The notes below the pieces were generated by a model. That model worked only from the letters and a program-made list of their open reading frames with translations, was not told the origin of the DNA and made no database searches. A program made the translations under genes and the position numbers. Below are positions 2,200 through 20,040 of a stretch of 32,847 nucleotides of DNA, piece after piece. The first letter of the stretch is position 1. Each line of letters opens with the position of its first letter. The DNA is from Candidatus Cloacimonadales bacterium (GTDB lineage: Bacteria > Cloacimonadota > Cloacimonadia > Cloacimonadales > TCS61): assembly GCA_030656075.1 (NCBI GenBank), contig JAUSOT010000280.1:1-32847 (forward strand). The letters are read 5' to 3'.

Positions 2200-3237
2200 A
2201 TGTTTTTTGATAGATTTTCAAGTTTTTTTTCTAACGATATTGCAATCGATCTTGGCACAGCAAATACTCTGGTTTACAGAAAAGGAATCGGTATAGTTAT
2301 CGATGAGCCCAGTGTTGTTGCTATTTCTACCTATAATAAGAAGATTATTGCAATAGGAACTGATGCCAAAGAAATGCTGGGAAAAAATCCCGACGGAGTA
2401 AAAATCATCAAACCTCTCAAGGATGGTGTGATCGCAGATTTCCAAGTTACGGAGTTAATGCTGAGAAACCTGATTTTGAGGGCCCAGAAGAAAAGATTGT
2501 TGATCAAACCAAGAGTATTGGTGTGCGTTCCTTCCGGCATAACAGAAGTGGAAAAACGAGCTGTTCGCGACAGCGCTCTACACGCCGGTGCCCGGGAAGT
2601 TCATCTTGTTTCCGAACCGATCGCTGCAGCCTTGGGAGCAGATCTACCGATCCATAGACCTCAGGGAAACCTGGTGATGGATATTGGTGGAGGCACAACT
2701 GAAATTGCTATAATATCACTTTCTCAAATTGTAGTTCACATTTCCATCCGGGTGGGCGGTGATAAAATGGACGAAGCAATCGTGAGCTATTTACGTAAAC
2801 GAAATAATATTTTTGTCGGCATTCAAACTGCCGAGAAGATAAAGAAAGAAATCGGTTCAGCCTATCCGTTGGAAAAAGAGCTGAAAATGGAAGTCCGCGG
2901 CAGAGACATCATCACCGGATATCCCATAACTGTGGAAGTTACTTCCGAAGAGATCAGAGAAGCTCTGGCCGAAACCGTTACCTCCATGATCGATGCAGTG
3001 AAGCGCCTTTTTGAAAAAACCGCTCCCGAACTGGCAGCAGATATTGCGGAACGCGGCGTTATACTTACCGGCGGCGGAGCGCAATTGAAAGGTCTTGATA
3101 AAAAAATCCAGGACACTGTCGATCTGCCGGTGCATGTGATGCCGGATTCGCTGCTCTGCGTTTTGAAAGGATGCGGAATGATTTTGGATAATCTGGAAGA
3201 TTATAAAGAAGTGCTCATCAGGAAAATCGAAGATTAA
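2200..3237 (+). CDS. mreB: Rod-shape-determining actin homologue MreB
   Basis: MreB is a bacterial actin that forms membrane-bound ATP filaments and directs lateral cell-wall synthesis by the elongasome. The 345 residues carry the actin-fold nucleotide motifs: phosphate-1 IDLGTANTLVY (about residues 16-26), EPSVVAI, phosphate-2 DIGGGTTEIA, GGDKMDEAI, and the adenosine motif LTGGGAQLKGLD near the C-terminus. The N-terminal MFFDRFSSFF is amphipathic and suited to membrane contact. The ATG at 2200 is chosen because AGGAGG ends four bases before it and the protein then has standard MreB length; upstream in-frame codons run through promoter-like DNA. It is the first gene of the mreBC-[ligase-like]-mreD-mrdA-rodA cluster, with mreC starting three bases after its stop. 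Confidence 0.97.
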   Translation: MFFDRFSSFFSNDIAIDLGTANTLVYRKGIGIVIDEPSVVAISTYNKKIIAIGTDAKEMLGKNPDGVKIIKPLKDGVIADFQVTELMLRNLILRAQKKRLLIKPRVLVCVPSGITEVEKRAVRDSALHAGAREVHLVSEPIAAALGADLPIHRPQGNLVMDIGGGTTEIAIISLSQIVVHISIRVGGDKMDEAIVSYLRKRNNIFVGIQTAEKIKKEIGSAYPLEKELKMEVRGRDIITGYPITVEVTSEEIREALAETVTSMIDAVKRLFEKTAPELAADIAERGVILTGGGAQLKGLDKKIQDTVDLPVHVMPDSLLCVLKGCGMILDNLEDYKEVLIRKIED

Positions 3238-3240
3238 GAA

Positions 3241-4023
3241 GTGAGAAAGAATTTTTTATTTTTCATCTATCTCATTCTTTCATTATTCTTAATCGCTGGC
3301 GGAACCGAAGCAAGATATAAAAAAGCTGATTTCCTGAATAAATTTGCCTTTTTTCCATTTATCAGTTCAATTGAAAAAATTAATTCTCTCCTTGATATTA
3401 AAGAGAAGAACAAACTTCTCACAGAACAACTTGCCATTCAAACCAATAAAATTGTCGATTTGGAAAACTGTCTTGACCGGGTTAAAAGTACCAGTCTTCA
3501 ATATGAAACTGAAAATTTTAATTTTGTGATTGCTGATATCATCGGTTTCACCGGTGTTTTCCAGGAAAGAAATCTTATCATTAATAAAGGCATTATAGAT
3601 AAAGTTTCGATCAATTCCCCGGTTATTTCCAATATCGGCATTGTGGGAAAGATCGTTTCGAATTCTCTGAATTATTCTGTGATATTACCATTGAATCATT
3701 CCAATTTTAAACTGGGCGTGATGAGTAAACGTTCTCATTTGCAGGGAATTATGGAATCGGATGCTTATGGAAATTCTTTTATGAACCTGATCAAATTAGG
3801 CTCTGATATTGCCGTTGGAGATACTATCGTCACTTCCAATATATCCACCATCTTCCCCAGAGGTTATCCGGTGGGCGTGATAACCAGGTTGAGGGAAGCT
3901 CCCGATCAGGTTTATATGTATGCCAATCTGCAGACTTTTATCGATCCTGCCAGCCTGGACCAGGTAATTGTTCTCGATTATAAAAAGGAAATAGATTATG
4001 AATCAGAAATCAGAGGTAATTGA
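3241..4023 (+). CDS. mreC: Rod-shape-determining protein MreC
   Basis: MreC is a bitopic inner-membrane protein that links MreB filaments to PBP2 and RodA in the periplasm. The 260 residues show one N-terminal membrane anchor (about 4-22), a coiled-coil-like stretch (about 45-85, rich in K/E/N/L) and the double beta-barrel region with family motifs such as NKGIIDKVSINSPVISN, GIVGKIV, GDTIVTSNIS, and FPRGYPVGVIT. The GTG start at 3241 is three bases after the mreB stop and has only a weak ribosome site, so translation is probably coupled to mreB. Its last 26 bases overlap the start of the next gene. Confidence 0.93.
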   Translation: MRKNFLFFIYLILSLFLIAGGTEARYKKADFLNKFAFFPFISSIEKINSLLDIKEKNKLLTEQLAIQTNKIVDLENCLDRVKSTSLQYETENFNFVIADIIGFTGVFQERNLIINKGIIDKVSINSPVISNIGIVGKIVSNSLNYSVILPLNHSNFKLGVMSKRSHLQGIMESDAYGNSFMNLIKLGSDIAVGDTIVTSNISTIFPRGYPVGVITRLREAPDQVYMYANLQTFIDPASLDQVIVLDYKKEIDYESEIRGN

Positions 4024-4681
4024 AATAAATAAACGCCAATATCTTCGCATTCCCATCAAGACAAAAATCCTGACTCCGGAAGATGATATGTTGGAAATCG
4101 TGCGGGAAAGCACCGGAAATATAATCGAAGCCGGAGACATCATTTCCATCAGCGAAAGCCCTCTGGCAATAACCCAGGGTAGAGCAATTCCGGTAGCAGA
4201 CATCAAGATCGGATTTCTGGCGAATATCCTGTGGAGATTTGTGTCCAAAGTAAAATACGGCATAGGATTGCGTGCTCCCACCAGTATGCAATGTGCTATT
4301 GATGAAGTAGGAGCCGGCAGAATTTTATTCGCTGCTGTAGTCGGCGGACTGGCTCGTTTGGCCGGCAGACGGGGAAAAGGAGATTTTTATCGTCTGGCAG
4401 GAAAGCAGGCAGCTCTTATAGATGCAGCTCATACATCACCCGTTCCACCCTATGAAAGCTGTGTGATCAAAGGTCCGAAAGATCCGGAAAAAGTAGCGCA
4501 GAAAATCAAAGATAATCTCGGTTTTGAATGTGCGGTCATGGACATCAATGACATTGGCGGCTGCTGGATGATCGGCGGCAGCGACGGAATAGATAAAGCT
4601 TTCATGGAAAAAGTGATGAAAGACAATCCTCAGGGACAAGGTGACGAATTAACTCCGATTTGTCTAATCAGAGAACAATAA
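3998..4681 (+). CDS. Coenzyme F420-0:gamma-glutamyl ligase (CofE/FbiB N-domain) family protein
   Basis: The 227 residues resemble PF01996 proteins. CofE adds gamma-linked glutamates to coenzyme F420 using GTP. The N-terminal half has the family pattern IPIKTKILTPEDDMLEIV, GDIISISESPLAITQGRAIP (GD...EGR-like nucleotide/metal region), and the C-terminus ends in NPQGQGDELTPICLI, like PF01996 members in bacteria not known to make F420. It is slightly shorter than canonical CofE (about 250). The ATG at 3998 has AAGGA nine bases upstream and overlaps mreC by 26 bases; mreD follows after 20 bases, so it is co-transcribed with elongasome genes. No other F420 gene (cofC, cofD, fbiC) is visible. The substrate is unknown. 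An amide-ligase role on a wall or envelope precursor is speculation. Confidence 0.75.
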   Translation: MNQKSEVIEINKRQYLRIPIKTKILTPEDDMLEIVRESTGNIIEAGDIISISESPLAITQGRAIPVADIKIGFLANILWRFVSKVKYGIGLRAPTSMQCAIDEVGAGRILFAAVVGGLARLAGRRGKGDFYRLAGKQAALIDAAHTSPVPPYESCVIKGPKDPEKVAQKIKDNLGFECAVMDINDIGGCWMIGGSDGIDKAFMEKVMKDNPQGQGDELTPICLIREQ

Positions 4682-4701: not shown

Positions 4702-5187
4702 ATGAAAACAATCAAACTGATATTTTGGGGGATTCTGCTGCTTTATGCCCAGATTTTGCTGGCTGAAAAATTCTCTCTTCTGGGTATCATTCCAAATTTT
4801 CTGATTGCGTACATAATTTACGTTAATATAAAAACCGGTTTAATAACTTCTCTTTCAATTTCATTTTTTTTAGGATTGCTCTTCGATCTGGTACAACCCA
4901 ATTTACTTGGTTTGCATTCACTTTCGTTTATCACCATCAGCCTGTTGATCCAAAATTTTCATCCCAGCATAAATAAAAAGCGTTTCATTGTAGTTTTGTT
5001 CAGTATTCTTTTTGTGAATTTCATCTATTATTTATTATTCGTTTTATATCATTTCATTTCCCTGCAAAAGCTGCCGGGTTTTTTCCTGCTCTTCTTATTC
5101 GCCGTAGCCTATAATACTTTCATTTCAATAATCTCAATTTATTTCTTTACTATAATGAGCAAATTGAAGTTGACGATCGATGTCTGA
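4702..5187 (+). CDS. mreD: Rod-shape-determining protein MreD
   Basis: MreD is a small polytopic membrane protein of the elongasome. The 161 residues are almost wholly hydrophobic, with about five predicted membrane helices, and include the family-like segment SISFFLGLLFDLVQPNLLG, matching the usual G-hhxDh...P-hG pattern. Sequence conservation in MreD is low, so the call rests also on position between mreC and mrdA. AAGGTGA lies just upstream of the ATG. The 3' end overlaps mrdA by 8 bases, which suggests coupled translation. Confidence 0.85.
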   Translation: MKTIKLIFWGILLLYAQILLAEKFSLLGIIPNFLIAYIIYVNIKTGLITSLSISFFLGLLFDLVQPNLLGLHSLSFITISLLIQNFHPSINKKRFIVVLFSILFVNFIYYLLFVLYHFISLQKLPGFFLLFLFAVAYNTFISIISIYFFTIMSKLKLTIDV

Positions 5188-6928
5188 TAGTAATCCCCTA
5201 AAAATTATTACCTATTTAATCTCAGGATTTTTCCTTATCCTGTTAGCCGCACTTTTCAAACTGCAAATCCTGGAAGGAAAGAAATACGATCAAATTGCTG
5301 AGAATAATATTGTCCGGATCAAAGTAACTTTTCCAATCCGGGGTGAAATCTACGACCATAAATTTCGACCTATCGCTACCAATAAACCATCATTTAATCT
5401 CTATATCACACCCGGTAGAATCAGGAATAAAGAAACTGTCATCAATTTTGTCAGCGGCGATTTTAACATGGATCGGGAAGAGATCAGAAAGGTGATCCAT
5501 GAAAACAGGTTTCGTCTGCACCAGGATATTCTTCTCATCCAAAACATTCCGTATGAAAAAATGATCCGGACTTCCGAGTTTTTGAATTATTATCCTTCGC
5601 TGGATTTCAAAACCGAAGCTATTCGGGAATATGCTTTTCCCAATCATTTCACCGGACATTTGGGTAGGATAAACGAAAAAGAATATCTGGAAAAGAAAGA
5701 TCTGGGTTATACGATAAACAGCTATCTCGGCAAGAATGGATTGGAGCAATCTTACGAAACAATTTTACGCGGCAAAAACGGCTACAACGTTATCCAGGTG
5801 GATGCCAGCGGAAAATATCTGCAATTTTTTAAACATAACCTGGATAAACCGGCTCAAAACGGCGCTGATCTAATTTTATCCATCGATAATGATCTGCAAA
5901 ATTATGTCGTGGATATTTTACCCCCCAAAGAACGCAGCGCCGTAGTGGTGATGGATACCGAAACCGGTGAGATTCTGGCTTATGTGAGCAAACCGGATTT
6001 TGACCTGAATATTTTCAGCAGCAATATTTCTCAGGAAGATTGGAATAAAATTTCCAATGACGAATCGAAGCCAATGCTGGATCGTGTAATTCATGGAACG
6101 TATCCGCCGGGATCGGTTTACAAGCCGATTCTTGCTACCTTAGGTCTGGAGTCGGGAACGATTTTGCCCGAGACTAAATTGGCTGATTGTACTGGTGGCT
6201 TATTAATCGGCGACCGCTTCTTTAAATGCTGGTGGGAAAAAGGTCACGGTAGGCTGAACGTTACCGAAGCAATCAAAGTTTCCTGCGATGTCTTTTTCTA
6301 TGATCTTTCGACCAAGTTGTCACTGGCTCAGATGGGAGACTTTACAAAACTGAATATGCTGACGGTGAAGACCGGCATCGATCTGCCGGGAGAACGTTCC
6401 GGGTTCTTTCCGACTCGTGAATGGTATGTGGAAACTTACGGCAAATATACCTCCATTATCGGGCAAAAAGTGAATCTGGCGATCGGGCAAGGAGAAATAT
6501 TGACGACTCCCCTGCAGATTTGCGCTTATTTTGCTGCTTTAGCCAACGATGGAGTTTGGAAAAGACCGCATCTTTTAAAAAAATCAATTTCAAAAAACGC
6601 AAATCAGCCCTATGAAATTTATGAACAGAAATTACCTGTTTCAGATGAAAACATGAAGCTCATCCAACATGCTCTCTGGAAAGCGGTGAATGAACGATAT
6701 GGCACAGGAACAGCAGCCAGTGTGGGTGGTGTCGATGTTTGCGGCAAAACCGGTTCTGCTGAAAATCACATGGGAGATGAAACGCATTCCTGGTTTGCCG
6801 GCTATGCAATCGGTAGAAATTATAAAATTTCATTGGTAGTTTTTCTGGAAAATGCCGGCCATGGTGGAAGTATTTCCGCTCCCCTAGCAGGTAAAATTAT
6901 TCAATTTTATAACGGATTGGAAAAATGA
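5180..6928 (+). CDS. mrdA: Penicillin-binding protein 2 (elongation-specific D,D-transpeptidase)
   Basis: PBP2 is the monofunctional class B transpeptidase that crosslinks new peptidoglycan with RodA. The 582 residues contain an N-terminal membrane anchor (about 10-28), a dimerisation domain beginning FPIRGEIYDHKFRPIATN, and the penicillin-binding domain. Active-site motifs are all present: SVYK with Ser312 and Lys315, SCD at 368-370 (SxD, normal for PBP2), and KTG at 523-525 in CGKTGSAEN. Length is close to the usual 600-630. The start overlaps mreD by 8 bases and the stop overlaps the rodA start as ATGA, so the three are translationally linked. Confidence 0.96.
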   Translation: MSDSNPLKIITYLISGFFLILLAALFKLQILEGKKYDQIAENNIVRIKVTFPIRGEIYDHKFRPIATNKPSFNLYITPGRIRNKETVINFVSGDFNMDREEIRKVIHENRFRLHQDILLIQNIPYEKMIRTSEFLNYYPSLDFKTEAIREYAFPNHFTGHLGRINEKEYLEKKDLGYTINSYLGKNGLEQSYETILRGKNGYNVIQVDASGKYLQFFKHNLDKPAQNGADLILSIDNDLQNYVVDILPPKERSAVVVMDTETGEILAYVSKPDFDLNIFSSNISQEDWNKISNDESKPMLDRVIHGTYPPGSVYKPILATLGLESGTILPETKLADCTGGLLIGDRFFKCWWEKGHGRLNVTEAIKVSCDVFFYDLSTKLSLAQMGDFTKLNMLTVKTGIDLPGERSGFFPTREWYVETYGKYTSIIGQKVNLAIGQGEILTTPLQICAYFAALANDGVWKRPHLLKKSISKNANQPYEIYEQKLPVSDENMKLIQHALWKAVNERYGTGTAASVGGVDVCGKTGSAENHMGDETHSWFAGYAIGRNYKISLVVFLENAGHGGSISAPLAGKIIQFYNGLEK

Positions 6929-8133
6929 GAAATTTTGACTGGTTTATCTTCATACTGCTGCTTTGTTTGATCTTGTTCGGCGTTATTGCAATTTACTCGG
7001 CTTCTGCAAATAAAATCGGTGATGATCTCGAAGTAGAAAATTATTACATTAAACAAATCTTCTGGGTTTTCATTTCCCTGATCCTGCTTTACCTGATCTT
7101 CAAAACACCATACAATTTAATTGAAATACTGGTTGTCCCGGCTTATTTTCTGACAATTATTTTATTGGTTCTTGTTCTATTTCTACCGGAGATCAAAGGA
7201 GCTCATCGTTGGATACCACTAGGTTTAATGAATTTTCAGCCTTCCGAATTGGCCAAACTGATAGTGATCCTGATGATTTCCAAAGTGATCTCGGGGCAGC
7301 ATCTTTCCGGAACTCAGATTCTCACCCGTTCTATCCTGGTTGTCATTTTACCGGTTATTCTCATTTTGTTGGAACCTGATCTTGGCACCGCCCTGACTTT
7401 GGTTCTCAGTCTGTTTGCCATCCTAGTTGTTTCTGATCTTCCTTCTTTGTATTTAATTATTATGCTTGGTCTGCTGTTCAGTATTGTCACTTCTTTTTCG
7501 ATTATTGCTTTTTTGATATTCATTTTAATTTTTATTTATCTGTTGTTCAGAATTAATCTTTCCAAAATCGTTATTGCCTTCGCTGTCACAGTTAATACGT
7601 TTTTCTTCATCATCACACCAATAATCTGGAACAGCCTGAAAGATTATCAACAAAACCGGATACTTTCTTTCCTCAATCCGATGCGTGATCCATTCGGTGT
7701 CGGCTATCAAATCATCCAATCAAAAATTGCGATCGGTTCCGGTGGTTTGCTGGGAAAAGGGTTTCTGAGCGGCACTCAAAAAAACATGAATTTCCTGCCC
7801 GAACACCACACCGATTTCATCTTTTCTGTGATTGGTGAAGAATTTGGTTTTTTTGGTTGCACAATTCTTTTGCTTTTTTATTTTTTGTTTCTGTACAGGA
7901 TAGCGAGAAAGATATCCAGCTTGAAACGTAAAGAGTTCAGGTATGCATCGGTGGGGATTTTAGCTTACCTGTCGTTTCAGATCTTTGTAAATATTGGAAT
8001 GACTATCGGGATCGTTCCCACCACGGGAATTCCATTGCCATTTGCCAGTTACGGCGGATCAAATCTGTTGATCAATGTGCTGGCAGTGGGATTGATATTG
8101 AAGTTCATTAATGAAAGAAGTATTTTTAATTAG
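6925..8133 (+). CDS. rodA: Peptidoglycan glycosyltransferase RodA (SEDS family)
   Basis: RodA polymerises lipid II into glycan strands during elongation and works as a pair with PBP2. The 402 residues form about ten membrane helices and carry the SEDS hallmarks: HRWIPLGLMNFQPSELAKL after the third or fourth helix, LLEPDLGTALTL with the catalytic aspartate, the extracellular loop LPEHHTDFIFSVIGEEFG, and the C-terminal GIVPTTGIPLPFASYGGS. The first ATG overlaps the mrdA stop by four bases (ATGA). FtsW is the alternative SEDS member, but the position next to PBP2 and MreBCD argues for RodA. Confidence 0.96.
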   Translation: MRNFDWFIFILLLCLILFGVIAIYSASANKIGDDLEVENYYIKQIFWVFISLILLYLIFKTPYNLIEILVVPAYFLTIILLVLVLFLPEIKGAHRWIPLGLMNFQPSELAKLIVILMISKVISGQHLSGTQILTRSILVVILPVILILLEPDLGTALTLVLSLFAILVVSDLPSLYLIIMLGLLFSIVTSFSIIAFLIFILIFIYLLFRINLSKIVIAFAVTVNTFFFIITPIIWNSLKDYQQNRILSFLNPMRDPFGVGYQIIQSKIAIGSGGLLGKGFLSGTQKNMNFLPEHHTDFIFSVIGEEFGFFGCTILLLFYFLFLYRIARKISSLKRKEFRYASVGILAYLSFQIFVNIGMTIGIVPTTGIPLPFASYGGSNLLINVLAVGLILKFINERSIFN

Positions 8134-17979: not shown

Positions 17980-18618
17980 ATGAAACCCGTCATTCTTCCC
18001 TTCGGTAAAACCATTTATCAGACCGATCACGGTCAATCCATCACATCTGATACAGCTTTTGTGGTGGAAACAATTCTCGAACAAATTCAAGAAGAAAATC
18101 TTTCGGTTCTGGAACTCGGCAGCGGCAACGGCATCATCAGCATCATGCTGGCGCATTATCGTCCGAACTGGCAGATCAGCGGCCTCGAAATCCAGAAAGA
18201 ATTAATGATCCTTTCCAAAAGAAATGCTGAACTTGCCGAAGTAAAAATTGATTTCCAGGAAGCCGATCTGAAGAATTTCCAATCTTCTTTCCGCTTTGAT
18301 CTGATCATTTCCAATCCGCCCTATTTTCCTGTTAACCAGGGCAAGATCAGTCCGATCCCGGAAAGAGCTATTTCCCGGCATGAAATTTCCTGTAAAATGA
18401 TCGATATTTTCCAGACTGTGAAAAGAAATCTGAAACCGGATGGCAAAGCTTTCCTGCTCTACCCGGAAGAACGCCTGGCTGAAGCTGAGAAAAACGTAAA
18501 AAAGGTTGACCTGAAATTAGCTTCAAAATTTATAATGCCTGCAGTAAAAAGCAGGAAAAAAATAGTTTTGAAGCTAGAAAAAGCTGAGGAATATATTATT
18601 GGAGTTGATGAATGCTGA
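17980..18618 (+). CDS. SAM-dependent methyltransferase, TrmN6 (tRNA1(Val) adenine-N6)-like
   Basis: The 212 residues form a class I Rossmann methyltransferase. Near the N-terminus HGQSITSDTAFVVETI fits the family's Q..Y.F..DA.LL segment, then the SAM loop ELGSGNGI (45-52), an acidic motif II (SGLEIQ), and the amino-methylating NPPY at 112-115, which marks N6-adenine, N5-glutamine or similar targets. The later SRHEI matches the ARHE box of TrmN6/YfiC, so tRNA adenine-37 of valine tRNA is the best guess; rRNA or protein targets remain possible. Its 3' end overlaps the next gene by 7 bases, so it is the head of a three-gene unit with an FtsEX-like pair. Confidence 0.82.
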   Translation: MKPVILPFGKTIYQTDHGQSITSDTAFVVETILEQIQEENLSVLELGSGNGIISIMLAHYRPNWQISGLEIQKELMILSKRNAELAEVKIDFQEADLKNFQSSFRFDLIISNPPYFPVNQGKISPIPERAISRHEISCKMIDIFQTVKRNLKPDGKAFLLYPEERLAEAEKNVKKVDLKLASKFIMPAVKSRKKIVLKLEKAEEYIIGVDEC

Positions 18619-19229
18619 AGATTGAGAACTTTGCCCTCACAGTTGGGCAGATGCGGTTGATGGTGATCGAAGAACTATTGGTCGCCAACGGTAAGAAAGT
18701 GCTGATCTTTGGTGAAAACGAAGCAGGAAAAACCCTTTTTTTACAAGCTATCCACAGCGAACATTCTAAATTTGCCGGCACTATCCACATCCAGGAAAAA
18801 CCGGTTTCTTATTTCAAGAAGAGAAAAAACACCATTCTGCTGGGAAATGAAATGCATCTGCTTCCCAATGATACGCTCTGGAACAACATTGTTCTTCCCT
18901 TTGAGAAACTTTCCAAGCAGCAGAAGATCAGAATATTTGAAATGCTGAAAGCCGTGGAACTGAGTCCCAGGATTGGTACGAAAGTGAAAAACCTGTCTCA
19001 TTCTGCCTGTAAATTTATCGAACTTATTCGCGCTGTTGTTCAACAACCTTATCTCATTTTGTTGGATGATTTTGATCATTTCTTTGATGCTAAAAAATAT
19101 CTGAAAGCCATGGATATTTGCCAGTTCGCCATCAGCAGCGGAACTTCCATCATTGCCACCTCCAAAAACAGGCTCGAACATTTCGATGATTATTATATGG
19201 TTCACGAACGCAAAGTGGTGAAAGTATGA
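18612..19229 (+). CDS. Degenerate FtsE-like ABC ATP-binding protein
   Basis: The 205 residues have the length and order of FtsE, the ATPase that works with FtsX to control wall hydrolases at division. Walker A is intact (GENEAGKT, Lys40). The other motifs have drifted: the Q-loop reads LLGNEMHLLP with Asn79 instead of Gln, the signature is LSHSACKFIE rather than LSGGQ (128-137), Walker B is LILLDDFD with Asp instead of the catalytic Glu (152-153), and the H-loop is ATSK with Ser184 instead of His. It may bind ATP but hydrolysis looks doubtful. No frameshift is seen and codon use is normal, so it seems functional. It overlaps the methyltransferase gene and is followed by an FtsX-like gene. Other small ABC proteins of the LolD/MacB kind are alternatives. 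Confidence 0.75.
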   Translation: MLKIENFALTVGQMRLMVIEELLVANGKKVLIFGENEAGKTLFLQAIHSEHSKFAGTIHIQEKPVSYFKKRKNTILLGNEMHLLPNDTLWNNIVLPFEKLSKQQKIRIFEMLKAVELSPRIGTKVKNLSHSACKFIELIRAVVQQPYLILLDDFDHFFDAKKYLKAMDICQFAISSGTSIIATSKNRLEHFDDYYMVHERKVVKV

Positions 19230-19264
19230 AGCGAAAGCATCTTCTGAGGAAACTGGAAATATGA
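19226..19264 (+). CDS. Possible 12-residue mini-cistron bridging the ABC and FtsX-like genes
   Basis: ATG 19226 overlaps the ABC stop as ATGA, and its own TGA (19262-19264) overlaps the FtsX-like ATG as ATGA. It encodes MKRKHLLRKLEI, strongly basic. It could be a coupling peptide, or the remnant of a basic cytoplasmic arm of FtsX separated by a frameshift. Chance is also possible for such a short frame. Confidence 0.3.
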   Translation: MKRKHLLRKLEI

Positions 19265-20040
19265 AGAAAGGTATCTTCTTTCAAATCGTCATTATCACCA
19301 TAATTTTACTGGTTTGGAATGTAATTCATCTTGGATACAAATATCAGAAAAATCTCCTCGAAGAACAGCTTGCCGGAATTCCCATGATACTGATCAGCCA
19401 GAACGTCGGTTCTTTGTATTCTCTGCGTTCCGAAATCGACAGCCTTGAAATTATCAAAGAAATTATTGTCGAATCGGATTCCGTGATCGCCAGGAACCTG
19501 ATGAGCCATTACCAGATCGAAGAAGCCGAATCTCTATTGGGCGACTTTCACCTTCCCAGCATTATGAAGATCTTTTTTACAGGAAAGGAATTTTCCAGTA
19601 CAGCTAAACTGAATTTGGAAGATCACATCATTTCCAACTATCCGCAGATCGTTATAAACTATGATAATAATTTCTGGGTGAAATCTGACAGAAAAATTCT
19701 GCTGCTGGCCAAAAGTTATTATTACGGGAACGGCTTTCTGGCTCTTTTTTTGATCGTAACAATTATATTCCTGCGGCTTTTTTATGAATCGAAACATCAC
19801 GAATATTGGCGGATATACCGCAATTCCGGCGGTAAAAGAAAGAAACGCCGCCAGCAGTTTTTCAGCAATTCTCTGCTGATCTGTCTGCTTCCAATTATTT
19901 TAAATTGTGCGGCATATTTTGCCTTACAATACTACAATTATCTTCCCATGGAAATCGATCTCCGCTTCTTTGCCGCTGAATTCGGCATTGTTGTCTTTTC
20001 GGTGCTGCTTTCCAGGTTATTTTTAGGAAAGAATCTCTAA
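19261..20040 (+). CDS. FtsX-like permease-fold membrane protein
   Basis: FtsX transmits FtsE ATPase cycles to periplasmic wall hydrolases. The 259 residues have the FtsX layout: one N-terminal helix (about 5-23), a periplasmic domain of about 120 residues containing SLLGDFHLPSIMKIFF, then three helices (about 158-178, 203-225 and 234-254) separated by a very basic cytoplasmic loop GGKRKKRRQQ. Sequence similarity to model FtsX is faint, so the call relies on topology, length and the adjacent FtsE-like gene. GAGGAAACTGG lies upstream of the ATG. The basic stretch sits where FtsX and MacB coupling helices contact the ATPase. Confidence 0.7.
   Translation: MKKGIFFQIVIITIILLVWNVIHLGYKYQKNLLEEQLAGIPMILISQNVGSLYSLRSEIDSLEIIKEIIVESDSVIARNLMSHYQIEEAESLLGDFHLPSIMKIFFTGKEFSSTAKLNLEDHIISNYPQIVINYDNNFWVKSDRKILLLAKSYYYGNGFLALFLIVTIIFLRLFYESKHHEYWRIYRNSGGKRKKRRQQFFSNSLLICLLPIILNCAAYFALQYYNYLPMEIDLRFFAAEFGIVVFSVLLSRLFLGKNL

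Follow-up and report, generated by a model that had tools for sequence, protein, structure and literature searches.

A CofE-fold protein encoded in the mre operon of Candidatus Cloacimonadota: a putative amide-forming ligase with a possible role at the cell wall

Why should a homologue of the F420-0:gamma-glutamyl ligase (CofE) be encoded inside the elongasome operon of a bacterium? The question is raised by the window, a stretch of 32,847 nucleotides from a Candidatus Cloacimonadales genome, in which Pfam and NCBIfam profiles define the order mreB-mreC-cofEL-mreD-PBP2-rodA, where cofEL denotes the gene of the PF01996 family (Table 1). The cut-offs that PBP2, RodA, and MreD of the window pass are those of NCBIfam equivalogs. 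The mreB reading frame opens at a TTG at position 2131, and homology begins near the ATG at position 2200. In its own genome, cofEL is the only PF01996 gene. A sequence-only reading of the window had already placed a PF01996-like gene here, and the overlap with mreC and the spacing to mreD that it gave proved exact.

Table 1. Features of the window locus, and conserved neighbours of cofEL in genomes outside the mre and dcw contexts
Feature	Location	Strand	Remarks
mreB	2200..3237	+	PF06723, E 1.9e-137
mreC	3241..4023	+	PF04085, E 8.8e-31; overlaps cofEL by 26 bases
Likely ribosome-binding site of cofEL, AAGGAA	3985..3990	+	Inside the mreC 3' end; by eye
cofEL, PF01996/CofE-fold protein, putative amide-forming ligase	3998..4681	+	227 aa, ATG start; Pfam 37.8 bits
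mreD	4702..5187	+	PF04093 and TIGR03426 above cut-off; 20 bases after cofEL
PBP2 (mrdA)	5180..6928	+	TIGR03423, 522.8 bits, cut-off 455
rodA	6925..8133	+	TIGR02210, 358.6 bits, cut-off 336.7
V-ATPase subunit A	G141, G288 (L133, L146)		Immediately follows cofEL, which lies within the V-type ATPase operon
argD-argF	G253, G387		Neighbour of cofEL
scpB and pseudouridine synthase	G154, G536		Neighbour of cofEL
ispDF	G237, G374		Neighbour of cofEL
Lipid A-type acyltransferase and Kdo transferase	G239, G376		Neighbour of cofEL
folP	G160, G305		Near cofEL, which is fused to TPR-like repeats

We found cofEL in 97 of 125 Cloacimonadota genomes, and in 61 of the 71 good genomes. Apart from the window, 49 loci were inspected; 48 have the mreC-cofEL-mreD order, and a contig end interrupts the remaining one. 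The sequence-only reading had named two findings that would speak against it, an order confined to this one assembly and a full F420 pathway with this gene as the sole CofE; the order turned out to be phylum-wide, and these counts rule out a chance arrangement or a single-assembly artefact. Within the mre operon, only MreB is more strongly conserved than cofEL, which has a median identity to the window protein of 71%, compared with 84% for MreB, 51% for RodA, 49% for PBP2, 47% for MreC, and 42% for MreD. Fifty-nine residues are invariant in an alignment of 30 cofEL members. Such strong constraint argues for a working protein rather than a passenger.

The PF01996 (F420_ligase) match of cofEL, with an E-value of 1.9e-9, lies above the gathering cut-off of 25 bits, and hhalign profile-profile comparison with CofE gave a probability of 97.1% (E 6.4e-11). 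We modeled the structure with AlphaFold2 from the 30-member alignment at a mean pLDDT of 89.1. The only significant fold matches to this model in the PDB are the CofE structures 2PHN, 7ULD, and 2G9I (E 9.7e-8 to 3e-6), the nearest being 2PHN (E 9.7e-8, probability 1.00, TM 0.58). Weak matches to cytidine deaminases came up in PDB searches with the single sequence or the Cloacimonadota profile, a likeness to which the fold search gave no support. Besides the fold, cofEL shares with CofE and the FbiB N-terminal domain (2PHN, 7ULD) the equivalents of Asp109, Asp150, and Asn152, which align with Asp142, Asp182, and Asn184 of cofEL, as well as an N-terminal GDxIxISES...QGR segment and a C-terminal GQxxE..P segment with CofE. 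Asp109 and Asp150 are reported to be metal ligands of CofE in the paper on 2PHN. Asp142, Asp182, and Asn184 are invariant in 22 cofEL members from many phyla; judged from these alignments, the metal-site aspartates are kept in cofEL. The residue numbering of CofE was fitted to the residues named in the literature (PMC10861534).

Despite the common fold, cofEL differs from CofE in several respects. It is only about 15% identical and scores 16 bits with the CofE equivalog profile TIGR01916, far below the cut-off of 180.65, and it lacks both the C-terminal tail and about 25 more residues preceding the tail. CofE places Arg234 against the ring of F420 in a stacking contact (PMC10861534). This arginine lies 84 residues past Asp150, whereas cofEL ends 45 residues past the equivalent Asp182, so that a loss of F420 binding in cofEL is well supported. 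The search for F420 partner genes covered CofD (PF01933), which was found in none of 123 Cloacimonadota genomes, while the positive controls were found. Because CofD is absent, Cloacimonadota should not make F420. Hence, the earlier remark that no other F420 genes lie nearby extends, for CofD, to the whole phylum, a full pathway with cofEL as its sole CofE is not what these genomes encode, and the occurrence of CofE-family members in organisms without F420, which the sequence-only reading had mentioned, is borne out by a CofE fold in a phylum lacking CofD. Membership in PF01996 would be in line with cofEL serving as the CofE of an F420 pathway; however, the TIGR01916 score, the absence of CofD, and the lost tail leave this role almost no probability and rule it out as far as genomes allow.

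The same family occurs outside Cloacimonadota, and a gene restricted to this phylum is ruled out by domain-level profile searches, in which about 21 of some 260 sampled out-of-phylum genomes carry cofEL. PBP2 and RodA profile searches of the out-of-phylum cofEL loci brought to light a second wall operon, the dcw cluster of a complete genome with 70% GC (G251), in the order mraZ-rsmH-ftsL-ftsI-murE-murF-cofEL-mraY-murD-ftsW-murG-murC-murB-ddl. MurE, MurF, MraY, and MurD were identified above NCBIfam cut-offs and the outer dcw genes by eye, and ATGA and GTGA overlaps form gene junctions in the cluster. In the phylum of this genome, 133 of 148 genomes contain cofEL. All 20 loci fetched from three of its families (f140, f235, and f237) show murF-cofEL-mraY followed by murD; in two of them the contig stops within mraY. 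This order was seen in none of 10 loci from other families of the second phylum, where the proteins are longer and most of them have a distinct hydrophobic segment at the N-terminus. Linkage to peptidoglycan genes is therefore conserved in more than one phylum, with mre in Cloacimonadota and dcw in the second phylum, on separate clades.

A maximum-likelihood tree of 62 members recovered an mre-linked clade with a support of 91/94 and a dcw-linked clade with 100/100, separated by a branch with 99/84. Because the two clades are separate, peptidoglycan operons were probably entered twice, independently; the alternative would be an ancestral wall link with many losses. The second phylum also bears on the naming of the family. 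All seven genomes checked there contain a full CofE, 36–43% identical to the Archaeoglobus enzyme, together with cofEL. Since both proteins coexist in these genomes, CofE and cofEL have separate jobs, and the label of an F420 enzyme on cofEL would mislead in this phylum too.

Wall operons are not the sole home of cofEL, as the V-ATPase, argF, scpB, and other contexts demonstrate (Table 1). In each pair, NCBIfam annotation covered one genome, save for the partners of the folP and acyltransferase neighbours, and the second genome was read by eye. Of the conserved contexts, about eight in all, two belong to peptidoglycan operons and a third to an envelope operon. Our emphasis on the two wall operons was chosen after seeing the contexts, and their share, counted after the fact, is suggestive. 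Two further architectures were observed. At 12 loci, a hydrophobic N-terminal segment and a domain of about 150 residues precede the ligase domain, forming a membrane-anchored version, and at four loci TPR-like repeats precede it. Pfam identified neither extension in the two examples scanned.

Within Cloacimonadota, the linkage to mre is not obligate. Five good genomes (G011, G019, G024, G031, and G055) carry an intact mre operon with mreC, mreD, and PBP2 consecutive and next to mreB and, in most cases, rodA, and cofEL is absent from them both at the mre operon and elsewhere. In one genus, cofEL of one genome (G034) lies away from mre, as read at both places, and two further genomes have cofEL and mreC on different contigs. 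The G034 copy groups with its own family in the tree, which indicates that it moved rather than being newly acquired. In another genome, the operon is split and cofEL remains with mreD. The occurrence of intact mre operons without cofEL, together with this relocation, implies that the elongasome can do without cofEL; a wall ligase kept wherever the elongasome is kept would not be missing from five good genomes with intact mre. As a separate observation, five genomes (G028, G035, G038, G062, and G063) are without convincing MreB or MreC and may represent coccoid lineages or assembly gaps; G028 gave a sub-threshold MreC match only. Four of them (G028, G035, G038, and G062) are good genomes in which convincing MreB and MreC and also cofEL are absent, where assembly gaps are possible.

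What, then, might cofEL do? We see slightly less than an even chance that it is an amide ligase which needs a nucleotide and a metal and has a peptidoglycan precursor as its substrate. A CofE-fold protein that no longer works on F420 would remain an amide-forming ligase depending on a nucleotide and a divalent metal. Its chemistry would follow that of CofE (PMC10861534): a carboxylate of the substrate would be converted to an acyl phosphate, which the amino group of an amino acid would then attack. The most likely target would be a carboxylate group in a peptidoglycan precursor at the cytoplasmic face, such as UDP-MurNAc-peptide, lipid I, or lipid II, and the precursor might be modified in step with elongation. 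Catalysis, nucleotide, amino acid, and wall substrate are what we infer here, the wall substrate at the cytoplasmic face being suggested by the two wall operons and the membrane-anchored relatives; the anchored versions in other lineages would fit a membrane-bound substrate. The operon position can also reflect co-expression alone. The sequence-only reading had supposed that cofEL adds glutamate or another amino acid to a wall precursor, lipid carrier, or envelope protein. An envelope role gains from the independent murF-cofEL-mraY arrangement on a separate branch, while the five intact mre operons without cofEL, the relocation, and the unrelated operons speak against an obligate one. The more specific proposal, in which a CofE-fold ligase joins an amino acid to the stem-peptide carboxylate of a cytoplasmic or lipid-linked precursor and was recruited independently into the mre and murF-mraY operons, we consider less likely than not.

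In the chief competing explanation, the CofE-fold ligase would act on a soluble metabolite or cofactor, have no special link to the wall, and reside in housekeeping operons only for steady expression. The varied housekeeping contexts across phyla (mre, dcw, V-ATPase, arg, and scpB) agree with such an enzyme, as does the loss or movement of cofEL without damage to the mre operon. Tight coupling to peptidoglycan genes in two apparently independent placements, which many genera have retained, and the existence of membrane-anchored versions would be less expected of it, and we regard it as plausible while leaning against it. The TPR fusions and the membrane-anchored forms found elsewhere suggest protein-protein contacts, from which one could also imagine a non-catalytic cofEL that binds a nucleotide or metabolite and regulates elongation. 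However, neither the metal-site aspartates nor many of the polar residues vary between Cloacimonadota and distant phyla, making such a non-catalytic protein improbable.

Another precedent comes from Chlamydia, where CT611 (FolC2), a CofE homologue (COG1478), complements an E. coli folC mutant and replaces FolC (PMC1971073). Like cofEL, it is a member of the CofE family in bacteria without F420; CT611, however, lies with folate genes and stands in for a missing FolC, whereas Cloacimonadota have FolC and encode cofEL with mre. Polyglutamylation of folate by cofEL, for which the common family and a TPR-fused relative adjoining folP and a folK-folC fusion in two genomes (G160 and G305) would speak, appears improbable to us. 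FolC was found above the cut-off in 106 of 123 Cloacimonadota genomes, leaving no gap to fill, and folate genes were not found beside cofEL in the Cloacimonadota loci inspected. The fragmented genome of the window itself gave a partial FolC match of 159 bits, just below the cut-off. Since FolC is present, a simple FolC replacement is unlikely. We also noticed reading frames of about 800–930 residues in Cloacimonadota (e.g., G099:C116 and G100:C154) with weak FolC matches of the Mur-ligase type, perhaps resembling cyanophycin synthetase.

MurT/GatD carries out the amidation of lipid II. If a stem-peptide carboxylate were the target of cofEL, no system would be closer in function than MurT/GatD, but it has the unrelated Mur-ligase fold. 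MurT_C is absent from all 123 Cloacimonadota genomes, which says little because its absence is expected for a lineage of the Gram-negative type. In a search of the open-access literature, we found no paper that connects homologues of CofE with mre or dcw genes; a paper of 2026 on Cloacimonadota treats poly-gamma-glutamate, and F420 and the mre genes are absent from it by term search (PMC13082233). Should cofEL indeed act on wall precursors, uncultured phyla would modify them with an enzyme fold hitherto associated with the synthesis of cofactors, the step would be visible in their stem-peptide chemistry, and cofEL would found an undescribed class of peptidoglycan-modifying enzyme. Even with another substrate, cofEL represents a strongly conserved branch of ligases, named in family libraries as an F420 enzyme, across a phylum lacking CofD. 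The mre and dcw placements provide a concrete list of substrates for first tests.

Two other regions of the window may be mentioned. Upstream of mreB, positions 767–1882 encode a dehydrogenase of the Ldh_2 family, whose best NCBIfam match, L-sulfolactate dehydrogenase, stays below the cut-off. At positions 18612–20040, an ABC ATPase is encoded next to a membrane protein, and by eye the two resemble FtsE/FtsX.
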